From Chromohalobacter nigrandesensis (GTDB lineage Bacteria; Pseudomonadota; Gammaproteobacteria; Pseudomonadales; Halomonadaceae), in assembly GCF_023061285.1 (NCBI RefSeq), contig NZ_JAKGAM010000008.1, forward strand, positions 1 through 64,000: a DNA stretch of 64,000 nucleotides, given 5' to 3'. The translations under genes and the position numbers were made by a program. The notes under the pieces are model-generated. The model saw only the letters and a list, made by a program, of their open reading frames with translations. It made no database searches and had not been told where the DNA came from. How positions within the stretch are numbered: position 1 is the stretch's first letter; each line of letters starts with the position of its first letter. Below are positions 60,048-64,000 of the stretch, piece after piece.

Positions 60048-60959
60048 ATGATTAGACAACGAACATTAAAGAATACTATCCGTGCCACTGGTGTGGGGTT
60101 GCACTCAGGTGAAAAGGTCTACCTGACGTTGCGTCCTGCGCCGGTCAATACTGGCGTCGTCTTCGTACGTACCGATCTCGATCCAGTGGTCCAGATTGCT
60201 GCCAGCGCCGAATATGTGACCGATACGACGCTTTGCACCGCACTGTCGCGTGATGGCGTCAAGGTCGCGACGGTGGAGCATCTGATGTCGGCGTTTGCCG
60301 GCCTGGGGATCGACAATATTTTCGTCGAGCTCAGTGCCCCGGAAGTGCCTATCATGGATGGCAGTGCCGGTCCGTTCGTCTTCTTGATTCAGTCGGCAGG
60401 CATCGCTGAACAGGGGGCGGCCAAGAAGTTCATCCGCATCAAGCGTGAGATCGTGGTGGAAGAGGATGACAAGGAAGCGCGCTTCTTGCCGCATAACGGT
60501 TTTAAAGTAGCGTTTGCCATCGACTTCGATCATCCTGTCTTCGCGCACCAGAAGCAGACGGCAAGCGTCGACTTCTCGACGACTTCTTTCGTGAAGGAAG
60601 TTTCCCGCGCGCGCACTTTTGGTTTCATGCGTGATCTGGAGTTCCTGCGCGCCCAGAATCTGGCGCTTGGTGGAAGCCTGGATAACGCCATCGTCGTCGA
60701 TGATTACCGGATCGTGAACGAAGGTGGGTTGCGCTATGACGATGAGTTCGTCAAGCACAAGGTGCTCGACGCCATCGGCGACCTGTATCAACTCGGGCAT
60801 AGTCTTATCGGTGAATTCCGAGGCGTCAAATCCGGCCATGGCTTGAATAACAAGTTATGCCGTGCCTTGATGGCTCAGCAGGATGCCTGGGAAATCGTGA
60901 CCTTCGAAGACGAGACGCAAGCAGCGCCTATCTCCTATGCGGCGCCAGCATTGGCCTGA
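60048..60959 (+). CDS. lpxC: UDP-3-O-acyl-GlcNAc deacetylase LpxC
   Basis: LpxC catalyses the committed, zinc-dependent step of lipid A synthesis. The 303-residue product has [20 protein letters not shown] split, the zinc His78 in [18 protein letters not shown], and the second zinc site [16 protein letters not shown] (His237/Asp241-like). The tail [13 protein letters not shown] resembles the degradation-prone C-terminus that FtsH recognises in E. coli. Last gene of the dcw cluster, closed by a terminator. Confidence 0.98.
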
Positions 60960-61058: not shown

Positions 61059-61520
61059 CTAGGCGTTGTCCGGGGTATGGGAAGCCAGGCGTGTCAGCGC
61101 CTTTTTCAGCTTGGGGTCCGTGGTGTCGTCCGCGCATGTCTTGAGATGATGCGCCGCTTCGGAAGAAAGTGCGCGTGGCTGGTAAGCGGGTGCCTTGAGA
61201 GGATGTACGGGACGGACCTTGAAATTGAGCGTCAGTACGGCTTCGAATTCAGGAAGTTGACGCAGCAGTTTGAGGAGTCGTTGGCGTTCGTAGCGTAGCC
61301 ACGTCAACCATACGGCGCCATCGGTGATGAGGGTCAGGGCGCCTTCTCGATAGCCACCGACATAGACGTGTTCGGCGATTTCGGTAGGAAGCCCGGCACG
61401 CAGGTGTTGTTGAGCCTTTTGCAGCAGTGTTGCCATACGTACCACCGACCCCAACTCGCCGGAACCGTCGATGAGATGGTGTATGGACTGGGCTCGGAAA
61501 CGCTTAGCCTTTATACTCAT
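61059..61520 (-). CDS. dciA: DciA/DUF721-family helicase-loading protein
   Basis: DciA is the ancestral loader of the replicative helicase DnaB, replaced by DnaC in E. coli. The 153-residue product from ATG 61520 (MSIKAKRFRAQSI) has the DUF721 KH-like core VWLTWLRYERQRLLKLLRQL preceded by basic segments. The position between lpxC and secA matches Pseudomonas. The open frame extends to 61922 antisense to the next gene, but that part is not used. Confidence 0.88.
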   Translation of the reverse strand: MSIKAKRFRAQSIHHLIDGSGELGSVVRMATLLQKAQQHLRAGLPTEIAEHVYVGGYREGALTLITDGAVWLTWLRYERQRLLKLLRQLPEFEAVLTLNFKVRPVHPLKAPAYQPRALSSEAAHHLKTCADDTTDPKLKKALTRLASHTPDNA

Positions 61521-61588
61521 GGGCTTGCCCGCGCGAAGGAAAGCAGAATGTCTGCGCAATCTACCATGAGCCGGAGCTCGTCGATAGC

Positions 61589-61963
61589 ATGACCAGCGCC
61601 ACGCACCATAGCTCAACGCCATCGCGTCGCGTTCGTACGCGACATCGTGCGCAATGGTGGCTTGCCGGTCTGTTGGTTGGGTGCCTATTGCCGGCGGGGT
61701 TGATGCACCCCGACGCGCTGCGTATTGCCGAGCGGTTGACGCAGATATGCCTAATGGCGCCGGACACCATTCGTGCCCAATCGCGCCGGGTGGCGCGGAG
61801 CAAGCGGTTGCTGGGCACCGGACGGCGGCGTCCCCGGTCTCCGCGCCTGTGGCGCTTGCCGCAGCGCTTCTATCATGTGTTGAGCGTGGGATTGGATGCC
61901 CTCTCGCGCCGAGGTCCACCACACAGTGTCTCGTTCCGAGATATCAGGCGACTAACCGCCTGA
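61589..61963 (+). CDS. Small secA-upstream protein, candidate SecM-like arrest peptide
   Basis: A 124-residue protein I do not recognise as a named family. It has a basic N-terminus (SRRVRTRHR), one hydrophobic signal-like segment at about residues 23-39 ([17 protein letters not shown]), a very basic middle, and the C-terminal sequence [19 protein letters not shown]. In it Phe94, Arg107, Gly109 and Pro110 line up with SecM F150, R163, G165 and P166, with the same 16-residue F-to-P distance; W155 and G161 are not kept. It also reads R-G-P-P, close to RAPP-type arrest motifs. Arg108 and the two prolines use CGA-CCA-CCA, uncommon codons for this GC-rich genome. The start ATG has only a weak ribosome-binding site. 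It lies 73 nt upstream of secA on the same strand. Arrest activity is inferred, not shown. Confidence 0.6.
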
Positions 61964-61997
61964 TATCGACGTCGGCATCGCGTCTATGCGATGGCCG
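61940..61997 (+). promoter_or_regulatory. Two leader hairpins between small gene and secA
   Basis: Hairpin 1 is an 11-bp perfect stem GATATCAGGCG/CGCCTGATATC (61940-61950 with 61957-61967) with a 6-nt loop, and contains the upstream gene's TGA. Hairpin 2 (61973-61981 with 61988-61997) has 9 bp and one bulged G. No T-run follows either, so they are not intrinsic terminators. The right arm of hairpin 1 can alternatively pair with the secA Shine-Dalgarno region (5 contiguous bp plus 2). Confidence 0.65.
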
Positions 61998-62026
61998 ATA
62001 TTGCGTTTTAGGCACTTTTGTATTTC

Positions 62027-62030
62027 AGGA
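62027..62030 (+). promoter_or_regulatory. secA ribosome-binding site
   Basis: AGGA, 6 nt before the secA ATG at 62037. It is partly complementary to 61959-61966, so its accessibility may depend on hairpin 1 upstream. Confidence 0.7.
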
Positions 62031-62036
62031 TCTCAC

Positions 62037-64000
62037 ATGCTCAATACTATTGTACGTAAGCTGATCGGCTCGAAGAACGAGCGGGAAGTCAAACGCATGC
62101 GCAAGGCCACCGAGGCCATCAACGCGCTGGAGCCCACGTTCGAGTCTCTCGATGATGCCGCGCTGTCGGCAAAGACCCGCGAATTCCGCAAGCGCCTGGA
62201 ATCGGGTGAATCCATTGACAAGATACTTCCCGAAGCTTTCGCCGTGGTGCGCGAGGCGAGTAAACGCGTGATGGGAATGCGTCACTTCGATGTACAGATG
62301 GTCGGCGGGATGACACTGCACGAAGGGCGCATCGCCGAGATGAAAACCGGTGAGGGCAAGACCCTGGTCGGGACCCTGTCGGTCTATCTCAATGCGTTGC
62401 CCGGCAAGGGCGTACACGTAGTGACAGTCAATGACTATCTGGCGAGTCGTGATGCCGAGTGGATGCGCCCTCTCTACGAATTTCTCGACCTCAGCGTGGG
62501 TACGATCTACTCAGGCCAGGCCTCGCCCCAGAAGCGTGAAGCCTACGCCTGCGATATCACTTACGGGACCAACAACGAATTCGGCTTCGACTATCTGCGC
62601 GACAACATGGCGTTTTCACTGGATGACAAGGTCCAGCGGGCGCTGCACTACGCGATCATCGACGAGGTCGACTCGATTCTCATCGATGAGGCGCGCACGC
62701 CGCTGATCATTTCCGGCCCGGTCGAAGAAAACGTCGAACTTTATCGGCGTATCAATCAGCTTTCCCTGGGGCTCGAAGAGTGCAGCGACGAAGAGGACCC
62801 CACCAGCGGGGACTTTATCCTCGATGAGAAACAAAAGCAGGTGGAACTGACGGAAACCGGTCACCAGAAACTTGAAGGGATACTGAGAGAGTCGGAGCTT
62901 CTGGGCGCGGACGACTCGCTGTACTCGGCTCAGAATCTGGGGCTTCTGCAGCATGTGCATTCGGCGTTGCGCGCGCGCTATCTCTATCATCGCGACGTCG
63001 ATTACATCGTTAACAACGATGAAGTGGTCATCGTCGACGAGCATACCGGGCGTAGCATGCCCGGTCGCCGCTGGTCCGAGGGGCTGCACCAAGCGGTCGA
63101 GGCGAAGGAAAGCGTGACGATTCAGAAAGAGAGTCAGACGCTGGCCTCGACGACTTTCCAGAATTACTTCCGTCTGTATGACAAGCTCTCGGGGATGACG
63201 GGGACCGCCGATACCGAAGCCTTCGAGTTCCGCCAGATCTACGGGCTGGATGTCATGGTGATTCCCACCAACCGCCCGTTGGTCCGTGTGGACCACAACG
63301 ATCTGGTCTACATGAGCAGCGAGGAGAAATTCGAAGCCATCATCGACGACGTCAAGACGCAACGCGAAGCGGGGCGTCCCGTCTTGGTGGGCACGGCGTC
63401 GATCGAAACCTCCGAATACCTCGCCCAGCTGATGCGGCAGTATCAGATGCCGCACAATGTGCTTAACGCCAAGCAGCACCAGAGCGAAGCGGAAATCATC
63501 GCCCAGGCGGGCCAGCCCGGTGCTGTGACCATCGCCACCAACATGGCTGGACGCGGTACTGATATCGTGCTGGGCGGTAACTGGGAAGCCGAAGCGGCGG
63601 CTCTCGATGACCCTTCCGAAGATCAGATCGCGGCCCTCAAGGCGGCATGGCAGGAACGCCACGATGCTGTACTGGAGGCGGGAGGGCTCCACGTGATTGG
63701 CTCCGAGCGCCACGAATCGCGGCGTATCGACAATCAGTTGCGTGGGCGTTCCGGTCGTCAGGGCGATCCGGGCTCAACGCGCTTCTTCCTCTCGCTGGAA
63801 GATAACCTCATGCGGTTGTTCGGCTCCGATCGGGTGCAGCGGTTGATGAATGCTCTGGGCCTGGAGCATGGCGAGGCGATCGAGCACAAGATGGTGTCCA
63901 ACGCCGTCGAGCGTGCCCAGAAAAAGGTCGAGGGCCGCAACTTCGATATCCGCAAGCAGTTGCTCGAATACGATGACGTCTCCAACGATCAACGCCGTGT
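62037..64000 (+). CDS. secA: Preprotein translocase ATPase SecA (3' end beyond window)
   Basis: SecA is the motor that drives secretory proteins through SecYEG. The first about 654 residues are present, and no stop is reached by the window end. Visible motifs: [20 protein letters not shown], Walker A MKTGEGKT (102-109), [16 protein letters not shown]-type Walker [15 protein letters not shown], preprotein crosslinking region, and helicase motifs [27 protein letters not shown] and [19 protein letters not shown]. The remainder (scaffold and C-terminal zinc tail) lies outside. Confidence 0.98.

Follow-up and report, generated by a model that had tools for sequence, protein, structure and literature searches.

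The gene of 124 codons that lies directly upstream of secA in Chromohalobacter nigrandesensis raises the question whether translation of this small upstream open reading frame (uORF) controls the production of SecA, and by what kind of peptide. It was read in the window, the whole analysed stretch of 64,000 nucleotides of contig NZ_JAKGAM010000008.1. An earlier note, made from the sequence of the window alone, had proposed a translational arrest gene resembling secM of E. coli, whose arrest motif is FxxxxWIxxxxGIRAGP. The comparison of homologues and neighbouring RNA described here makes it quite likely that the uORF encodes a translation-arrest peptide of the RAPP type, with the core RGPP, that acts as a secretion monitor for secA. 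On its sequence the product groups with the predicted RAPP-type arrest peptides and is not a relative of SecM.

The uORF and its neighbours

Re-translation returned the gene and protein that the earlier note had quoted, with the start taken as the first ATG/GTG/TTG past the preceding in-frame stop (Table 1). The gap of 73 nt to secA on the same strand was confirmed, as were the basic N-terminus and the single hydrophobic segment of the product. Searches of Pfam, NCBIfam and PHROGs with the window protein gave zero family matches, solved structures searched with the family profile gave none up to E 10, and a scan of 61400-62100 found no promoter. For membership of the RQH/RAPP peptides we looked for a same-strand uORF directly 5′ of secA, secDF or yidC, shorter than 300 aa and of unassigned function, with an N-terminal signal or transmembrane segment, more than 30 residues from there to the arrest site, and a C-terminal RAPP-like motif kept among homologues. 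By length, distance from secA and lack of a family match, the uORF has the position and size of this class; the three remaining features are taken up below.

Table 1. Position of the uORF, its parts and its neighbours in the window.
Feature	Position	Strand	Basis or remark
lpxC	60048-60959		Pfam LpxC; far side of dciA
dciA	61059-61520	minus	Pfam DciA 5e-11; sits between lpxC and uORF
Candidate arrest-peptide uORF of secA	61589..61963	+	124 aa; homologues in 185/201 family genomes
Basic N-terminal region, residues 1-22 of signal sequence	61589..61654	+	sequence; charge count in homologues
Hydrophobic segment W23-L38 (16 residues), signal peptide or signal anchor	61655..61702	+	hydropathy, invariance
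Putative arrest core D103-x-L-S-R-R108-G109-P110-P111	61895..61921	+	column conservation
Predicted stall site: P110 codon in P site, P111 codon in A site	61916..61921	+	analogy with toeprinted RQH members
Perfect 11-bp hairpin across uORF stop codon	61940..61967 (arms 61940-61950, 61957-61967)	+	RNA fold
Second hairpin in uORF-secA spacer	61971..61999	+	RNA fold; 88% of cells paired
Shine-Dalgarno-like TCAGGA of secA	62025..62030	+	read from sequence
secA (extends past window end)	62037..64000	+	ATG at 62037; Pfam SecA_DEAD E 2e-131

Distribution in Halomonadaceae and the order

The window protein, used as query, had matches at E <= 0.01 in 185 of the 201 family genomes, which cover 20 of 24 genera. 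Among the best 80 of 183 relatives, the nearest named ones were other Chromohalobacter species (73-92% identity), followed by Salinicola, Litchfieldella, Onishia, Billgrantia, Modicisalibacter, Halomonas and Vreelandella. The four genera that gave no match were inspected through their secA genes, and none of the 11 loci read from the 16 unmatched genomes (L049, L051-L060) held a homologue. In the loci read, the uORF was linked to secA, with its stop codon 15 to 210 nt before secA (n=102).

A profile search of 390 genomes across the order gave 24 matches at E <= 0.01, of which 18 belonged to the same family with E values of 4e-26 or better, a count given without the family's share of the 390. 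The other six, from other families, had E values of 4e-4 to 0.01 and aligned N-terminal parts only, never the C-terminal core. Outside Halomonadaceae, 86 of the 99 genomes of the order with a secA match were read, and no uORF with R[AG]PP was found before secA in them, a sample that leaves 5 of 45 families outside and in which two contigs (L255 and L284) carried only ~154 and 94 bases before secA. Under a looser motif pattern the same 86 genomes gave four loci, none of them R[AG]PP (L232, RSPG; L248, LPPP; L261 and L274, HSPG). The claim that a candidate arrest gene of secA is characteristic of Halomonadaceae is supported by its presence in most genomes of the family, together with the conserved RAPP-type end described in the next section. 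Three of 30 genomes held a second, diverged SecA-like match (G012:C18, G021:C17, G004:C1), with 33-52% identity to the N-terminal query.

The place of the uORF is filled differently elsewhere. A frame resembling an M23 peptidase was found near secA in 61 of the 86 genomes from other families and in all 11 loci of the Halomonadaceae genera that have no uORF, versus none of the 109 uORF-bearing Halomonadaceae loci; the M23 assignment was confirmed with Pfam PF01551 for two examples, one being L056. We also considered whether the uORF derives from the N-terminal part of this M23 peptidase gene, which is not supported: profile comparison gave a probability of 3.9%, and the hydrophobic stretch alone was aligned.

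A conserved core at the end of the protein

Homologues were pulled from 120 loci by similarity to the N-terminal 75 residues, without use of the motif; after removal of 11 loci that lacked the uORF and 7 duplicates, 102 distinct homologues remained. Columns were tabulated on the window protein from 103 rows, one duplicate being kept. R-[GA]-P-P was present near the end of all 102 distinct homologues, as RGPP in 99 and as RAPP in three, the latter (L046, L071, L103) coming from three different genera. This is the conserved C-terminal motif of the RQH/RAPP class, and it bears out the resemblance of R108-G109-P110-P111 to RAPP-type arrest peptides that the earlier note had pointed to. Column identity was 1.00 at R108, P110 and P111, and 0.97 at both G109 and D103. 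Shuffling of residues 41-124 of the window protein placed R[GA]PP among its final 35 residues in 0.6% of cases.

Conservation ends directly past P111, the commonest residue at the next position reaching 0.17 of the 103 rows. Such a sharp end to the invariance at the di-proline would be expected from a stall at P110/P111. The codons of the core had also been singled out as rare-looking (CGA for R108, CCA for P110 and P111), and in the window this holds: in four of its long genes, with secA present in part only, CGA makes up 4 of 123 arginine codons and CCA 3 of 54 proline codons. Across the homologues the codons are not conserved. All four proline codons and five arginine codons occur at the core of the 99 RGPP homologues, so that selection acts on the amino acids and not on the codons, and pausing at rare codons is not supported.

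Comparison with SecM

The window protein does carry F94, V100, R107, G109 and P110 at the spacing of the SecM motif, and the arrangement of a signal-bearing uORF between lpxC and secA is that of E. coli, with the opposite-strand dciA also lying between them here. A true but diverged SecM that arrests through these five residues is nonetheless most improbable. Identity across the 103 rows was 12% at F94, 11% at V100 and 82% at R107, some homologues have Q, P, C or L in place of R107, and no tryptophan stands at the position of W155, an absence already remarked from the window alone. The selective conservation of an F...RxGPP end, proposed as a check on the arrest reading, was thus borne out for R108, P110 and P111, and nearly so for G109, but not for F94. 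Likewise, the register that had placed R107-x-G109-P110 on R163-A-G165-P166 of SecM has to be given up; the conserved one is R108-G109-P110-P111.

Searches for homology led to the same result. None of 26 members of the uORF family matched Pfam SecM (PF06558) or SecM_small (PF10818) at E 0.1, and two unrelated weak Pfam matches were all that these members gave at that threshold; E. coli SecM, as the positive control, matched Pfam SecM at 4.2e-58. BLASTP and profile comparison of the family with E. coli SecM gave scores at chance level, in line with the view of the earlier note that the protein is unlike SecM in overall sequence. Homology to SecM is rejected on profile, BLASTP, Pfam and column conservation taken together. 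What the two share is the place 5′ of secA, a signal sequence, arrest at the C-terminus (a candidate property here) and a RAGP-type end; the present family differs in lacking the conserved F/W/I/G tunnel residues and any SecM Pfam match, and in having RGPP as its core, in another register. The earlier idea of an arrest peptide is correct in kind, and its alignment to SecM is wrong in detail.

Signal segment and spacer

The N-terminal part is preserved in all homologues. Net charge ahead of the hydrophobic segment was positive in 100 of the 102, and the mean hydropathy over 15 residues exceeded 1.2 in every one (lowest 1.22), the threshold by which the family has the signal or transmembrane segment of the RQH/RAPP class. 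From the end of this segment to the residue of the predicted stall there are 52 to 173 residues (median 72, n=102), all beyond the 30 residues of that class; for comparison, the published spacer medians of the two SecM classes, as given in the main text of PMC10987492, are 131.5 and 71. Hydropathy, charge and spacer length would suit, by analogy with known monitors, a Sec-dependent chain whose pulling could free the stall.

For a signal sequence the segment shows unusual conservation, equal to that of the C-terminal motif. L29, C32, L33 and P35 were invariant in 26 rows and again in 103 rows, a lipobox-like L-[VI]-[GS]-C was found in 96 of 102 homologues, and a loose A-x-A-like site followed shortly past it in 88. 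It might be imagined that this is a monitor peculiar to Halomonadaceae whose signal segment is a specialised sensor, and that it reports lipoprotein export, or a particular contact with SecA or the translocon, and not bulk secretion; we regard this as rather doubtful. A second conserved block (61721-61801) lies past the signal segment, with R45, E48, R49, P58, R62, A63, S65 and R66 each kept in 80-96% of rows; during the predicted stall these residues would probably have reached or passed the opening of the ribosomal exit tunnel.

The conservation of the hydrophobic segment, with C32 and P35 invariant, could also be explained if the uORF encoded a small secreted or membrane protein of ordinary function, with RGPP as a functional motif of its tail. 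This is very unlikely. The invariance at the end of the protein is confined to R, P and P with exchange of G and A, and is followed by unconstrained residues; the gene is linked to secA in the loci read; and published relatives of the RGPP kind stall ribosomes, according to the main text of PMC10987492.

Published arrest peptides and the predicted stall site

We take the GTDB order Pseudomonadales to include Halomonadaceae; in the NCBI taxonomy Chromohalobacter stands under Oceanospirillales. Fujiwara et al. (2024) screened 30,175 GTDB genomes for uORFs of secA, secDF and yidC, and the main text of their report (PMC10987492) describes a group, uA_RQH_Pseudomonadales, made up of RQH members found 5′ of secA in a subset of that order. 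The member of this group that was tested has its core as R109GPP and arrests the ribosomes of both E. coli and B. subtilis, with fAP > 0.9 (PMC10987492). The uORF studied here has the motif (RQH-type) and the position (5′ of secA) of this group, and shares with it the localization signal and the C-terminal RGPP, with no difference found where the two are comparable. The absence of R[AG]PP uORFs before secA from the 86 genomes read elsewhere in the order ties the group to Halomonadaceae. It is highly likely, from these shared features, that the uORF family and uA_RQH_Pseudomonadales are one and the same. Arginine stands at residue 109 in 11 of 109 homologue rows, mostly from Salinicola (g3).

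The main text of PMC10987492 leaves the organism of the tested member unnamed, and contains none of the names Halomon-, Cobetia, Chromohalobacter, Salinicola, Kushneria, Zymobacter and Vreelandella; a literature search found no paper that treats the uORF in Halomonadaceae by name. RGPP arrest peptides upstream of secA are a kind already in print since 2024, and the Halomonadaceae family is very probably that group. Other members of the class are more distant. uDF_RQH_Enterobacterales (R125GPP, 5′ of secDF2), whose arrest frees the Shine-Dalgarno (SD) sequence and raises the downstream gene according to the main text (PMC10987492), has the same RGPP core but another downstream gene and another host lineage. 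ApdA and ApdP are RAPP peptides 5′ of secDF, from Actinobacteriota and Alphaproteobacteria, and are set apart from the present family by these descriptions.

The class also indicates where the ribosome would halt. Toeprints of RQH peptides place the third residue of the motif in the P site (PMC10987492, main text). By analogy, the uORF product is predicted to stall with P110 in the P site while the A site holds P111; the earlier note had expected a stall at G109-P110, which is one codon earlier. In ApdA and ApdP the RAP residues are described as keeping the A-site proline in an unreactive geometry (PMC10951233), robust arrest is reported for both RAPP and RGPP cores (PMC12992588), and arrest by ApdA and ApdP is reported not to be released by EF-P (PMC12992588). 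A RAPP-like motif alone is no guarantee of arrest, since, as the main text of PMC10987492 states, efficient arrest is not seen for most of the proteins of E. coli and B. subtilis that have such motifs. Stalling, the stall site and a pulling-dependent release are accordingly ascribed to the uORF product by analogy with its published relatives, and are to be read as predictions.

RNA structure between the uORF and secA

The RNA at 61930-62060 folds with a z of -3.62, and none of 200 shuffles was equally stable. Two hairpins account for the spacer in the window (Table 1), the first of which presumably starts 6-9 nt past the expected edge of the stalled ribosome, on a footprint size that we assume. 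Covariation was examined in 14 Chromohalobacter rows, 12 of them distinct. The two stems together were 91% paired, and each hairpin had two-sided changes in 2 of 11 pairs; the 4 of 22 pairs compare with 1.4 expected (2 of 500 shuffles as high), and the 6 cells with two-sided changes in both stems compare with 1.7 expected (0 of 500). Three other measures were not above shuffles: the fraction of cells that are paired (102 of 500 as high), the count of pair types (409 of 500) and the covariation score (130 of 500). These data suggest selection on the spacer RNA in Chromohalobacter, where the hairpins are kept; in other genera the predicted spacer structures differ. TCAGG in the SD-like sequence of secA is the complement of CCTGA at the stop codon of the uORF (61959-61963), a pairing beyond the reach of covariation since both are invariant in the 14 rows.

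Opening of the secA start region by a stalled ribosome was modelled in two ways. In the first model RNA upstream of the ribosome was free to pair across it, and the opening was equal to that with shuffled spacers (p 0.72). The E. coli secM-secA control failed too, going from 0.46 to 0.33, and the model was changed for this reason. The second model, adopted post hoc after the failure of the first, lets only the RNA downstream of the ribosome fold, and with it the control went from 0.32 to 0.45 (1 of 20 shuffles as large). In the window the secA start region went from 0.48 to 0.62 (2 of 20 shuffles as large). Over 101 loci, L048 being left out as its secA start was not placed, the mean opening was 0.054 versus 0.009 for shuffled spacers (p 8e-6). 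Related loci are not independent, and values were therefore averaged by genus; over 19 genera p lay between 0.005 and 0.47 according to which stretch was counted. Excess opening was largest in Salinicola among the genera with several loci (0.145, 14 loci), and there was none in genus g10 (17 loci). These folding models lend weak support to an RNA switch through which a stalled ribosome would open the secA start region. Against the switch speak the start of the strong hairpin past the expected ribosome edge in the window and the three of five covariation measures for the spacer hairpins that shuffles equalled.

Stalling at RGPP might instead have its main output elsewhere, for example in transcription read-through or in decay of secA mRNA by way of the spacer hairpins. 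The strong hairpins of Chromohalobacter, with some two-sided changes, would agree with such an output, as would the stretch centred on the SD, which showed no significant effect per genus (p 0.37 and 0.47). On the other hand, wider stretches of the start region do show the opening effect under the second model, a scan of the spacer for terminator-like sites found none, and the predicted spacer structures vary between genera. We consider an output other than SD unmasking improbable, and return to unmasking of the secA start region in what follows.

Proposed mechanism and significance

By the proposed mechanism, the N-terminal signal sequence would direct the nascent chain to the Sec translocon. 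Once P110 had been joined to the chain, R108-G109-P110 in the P site would prevent bond formation with Pro111-tRNA in the A site. Under active export, a pull on the nascent chain would quickly free the stalled ribosome. When SecA is short, the stall would persist and the ribosome would sit 121 nt before the secA start, where it would shield the secA start region from pairing by RNA further upstream, and more SecA would be made.

The 102 sequences amount to a family-wide natural mutagenesis of a RAPP-type arrest peptide, in which R, P and P are fixed and G and A interchange, and this pattern agrees with the prediction from published biochemistry. Two features go beyond the published account as given in its main text: the family-wide pattern of substitution in the core, and a strongly conserved signal segment in which C32 and P35 never change and most homologues show a lipobox-like motif. 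The invariant Cys-Leu-x-Pro of that segment is not explained by the arrest-peptide reading. For the family as a whole, the analysis suggests that Halomonadaceae as a rule control secA through a monitoring peptide.
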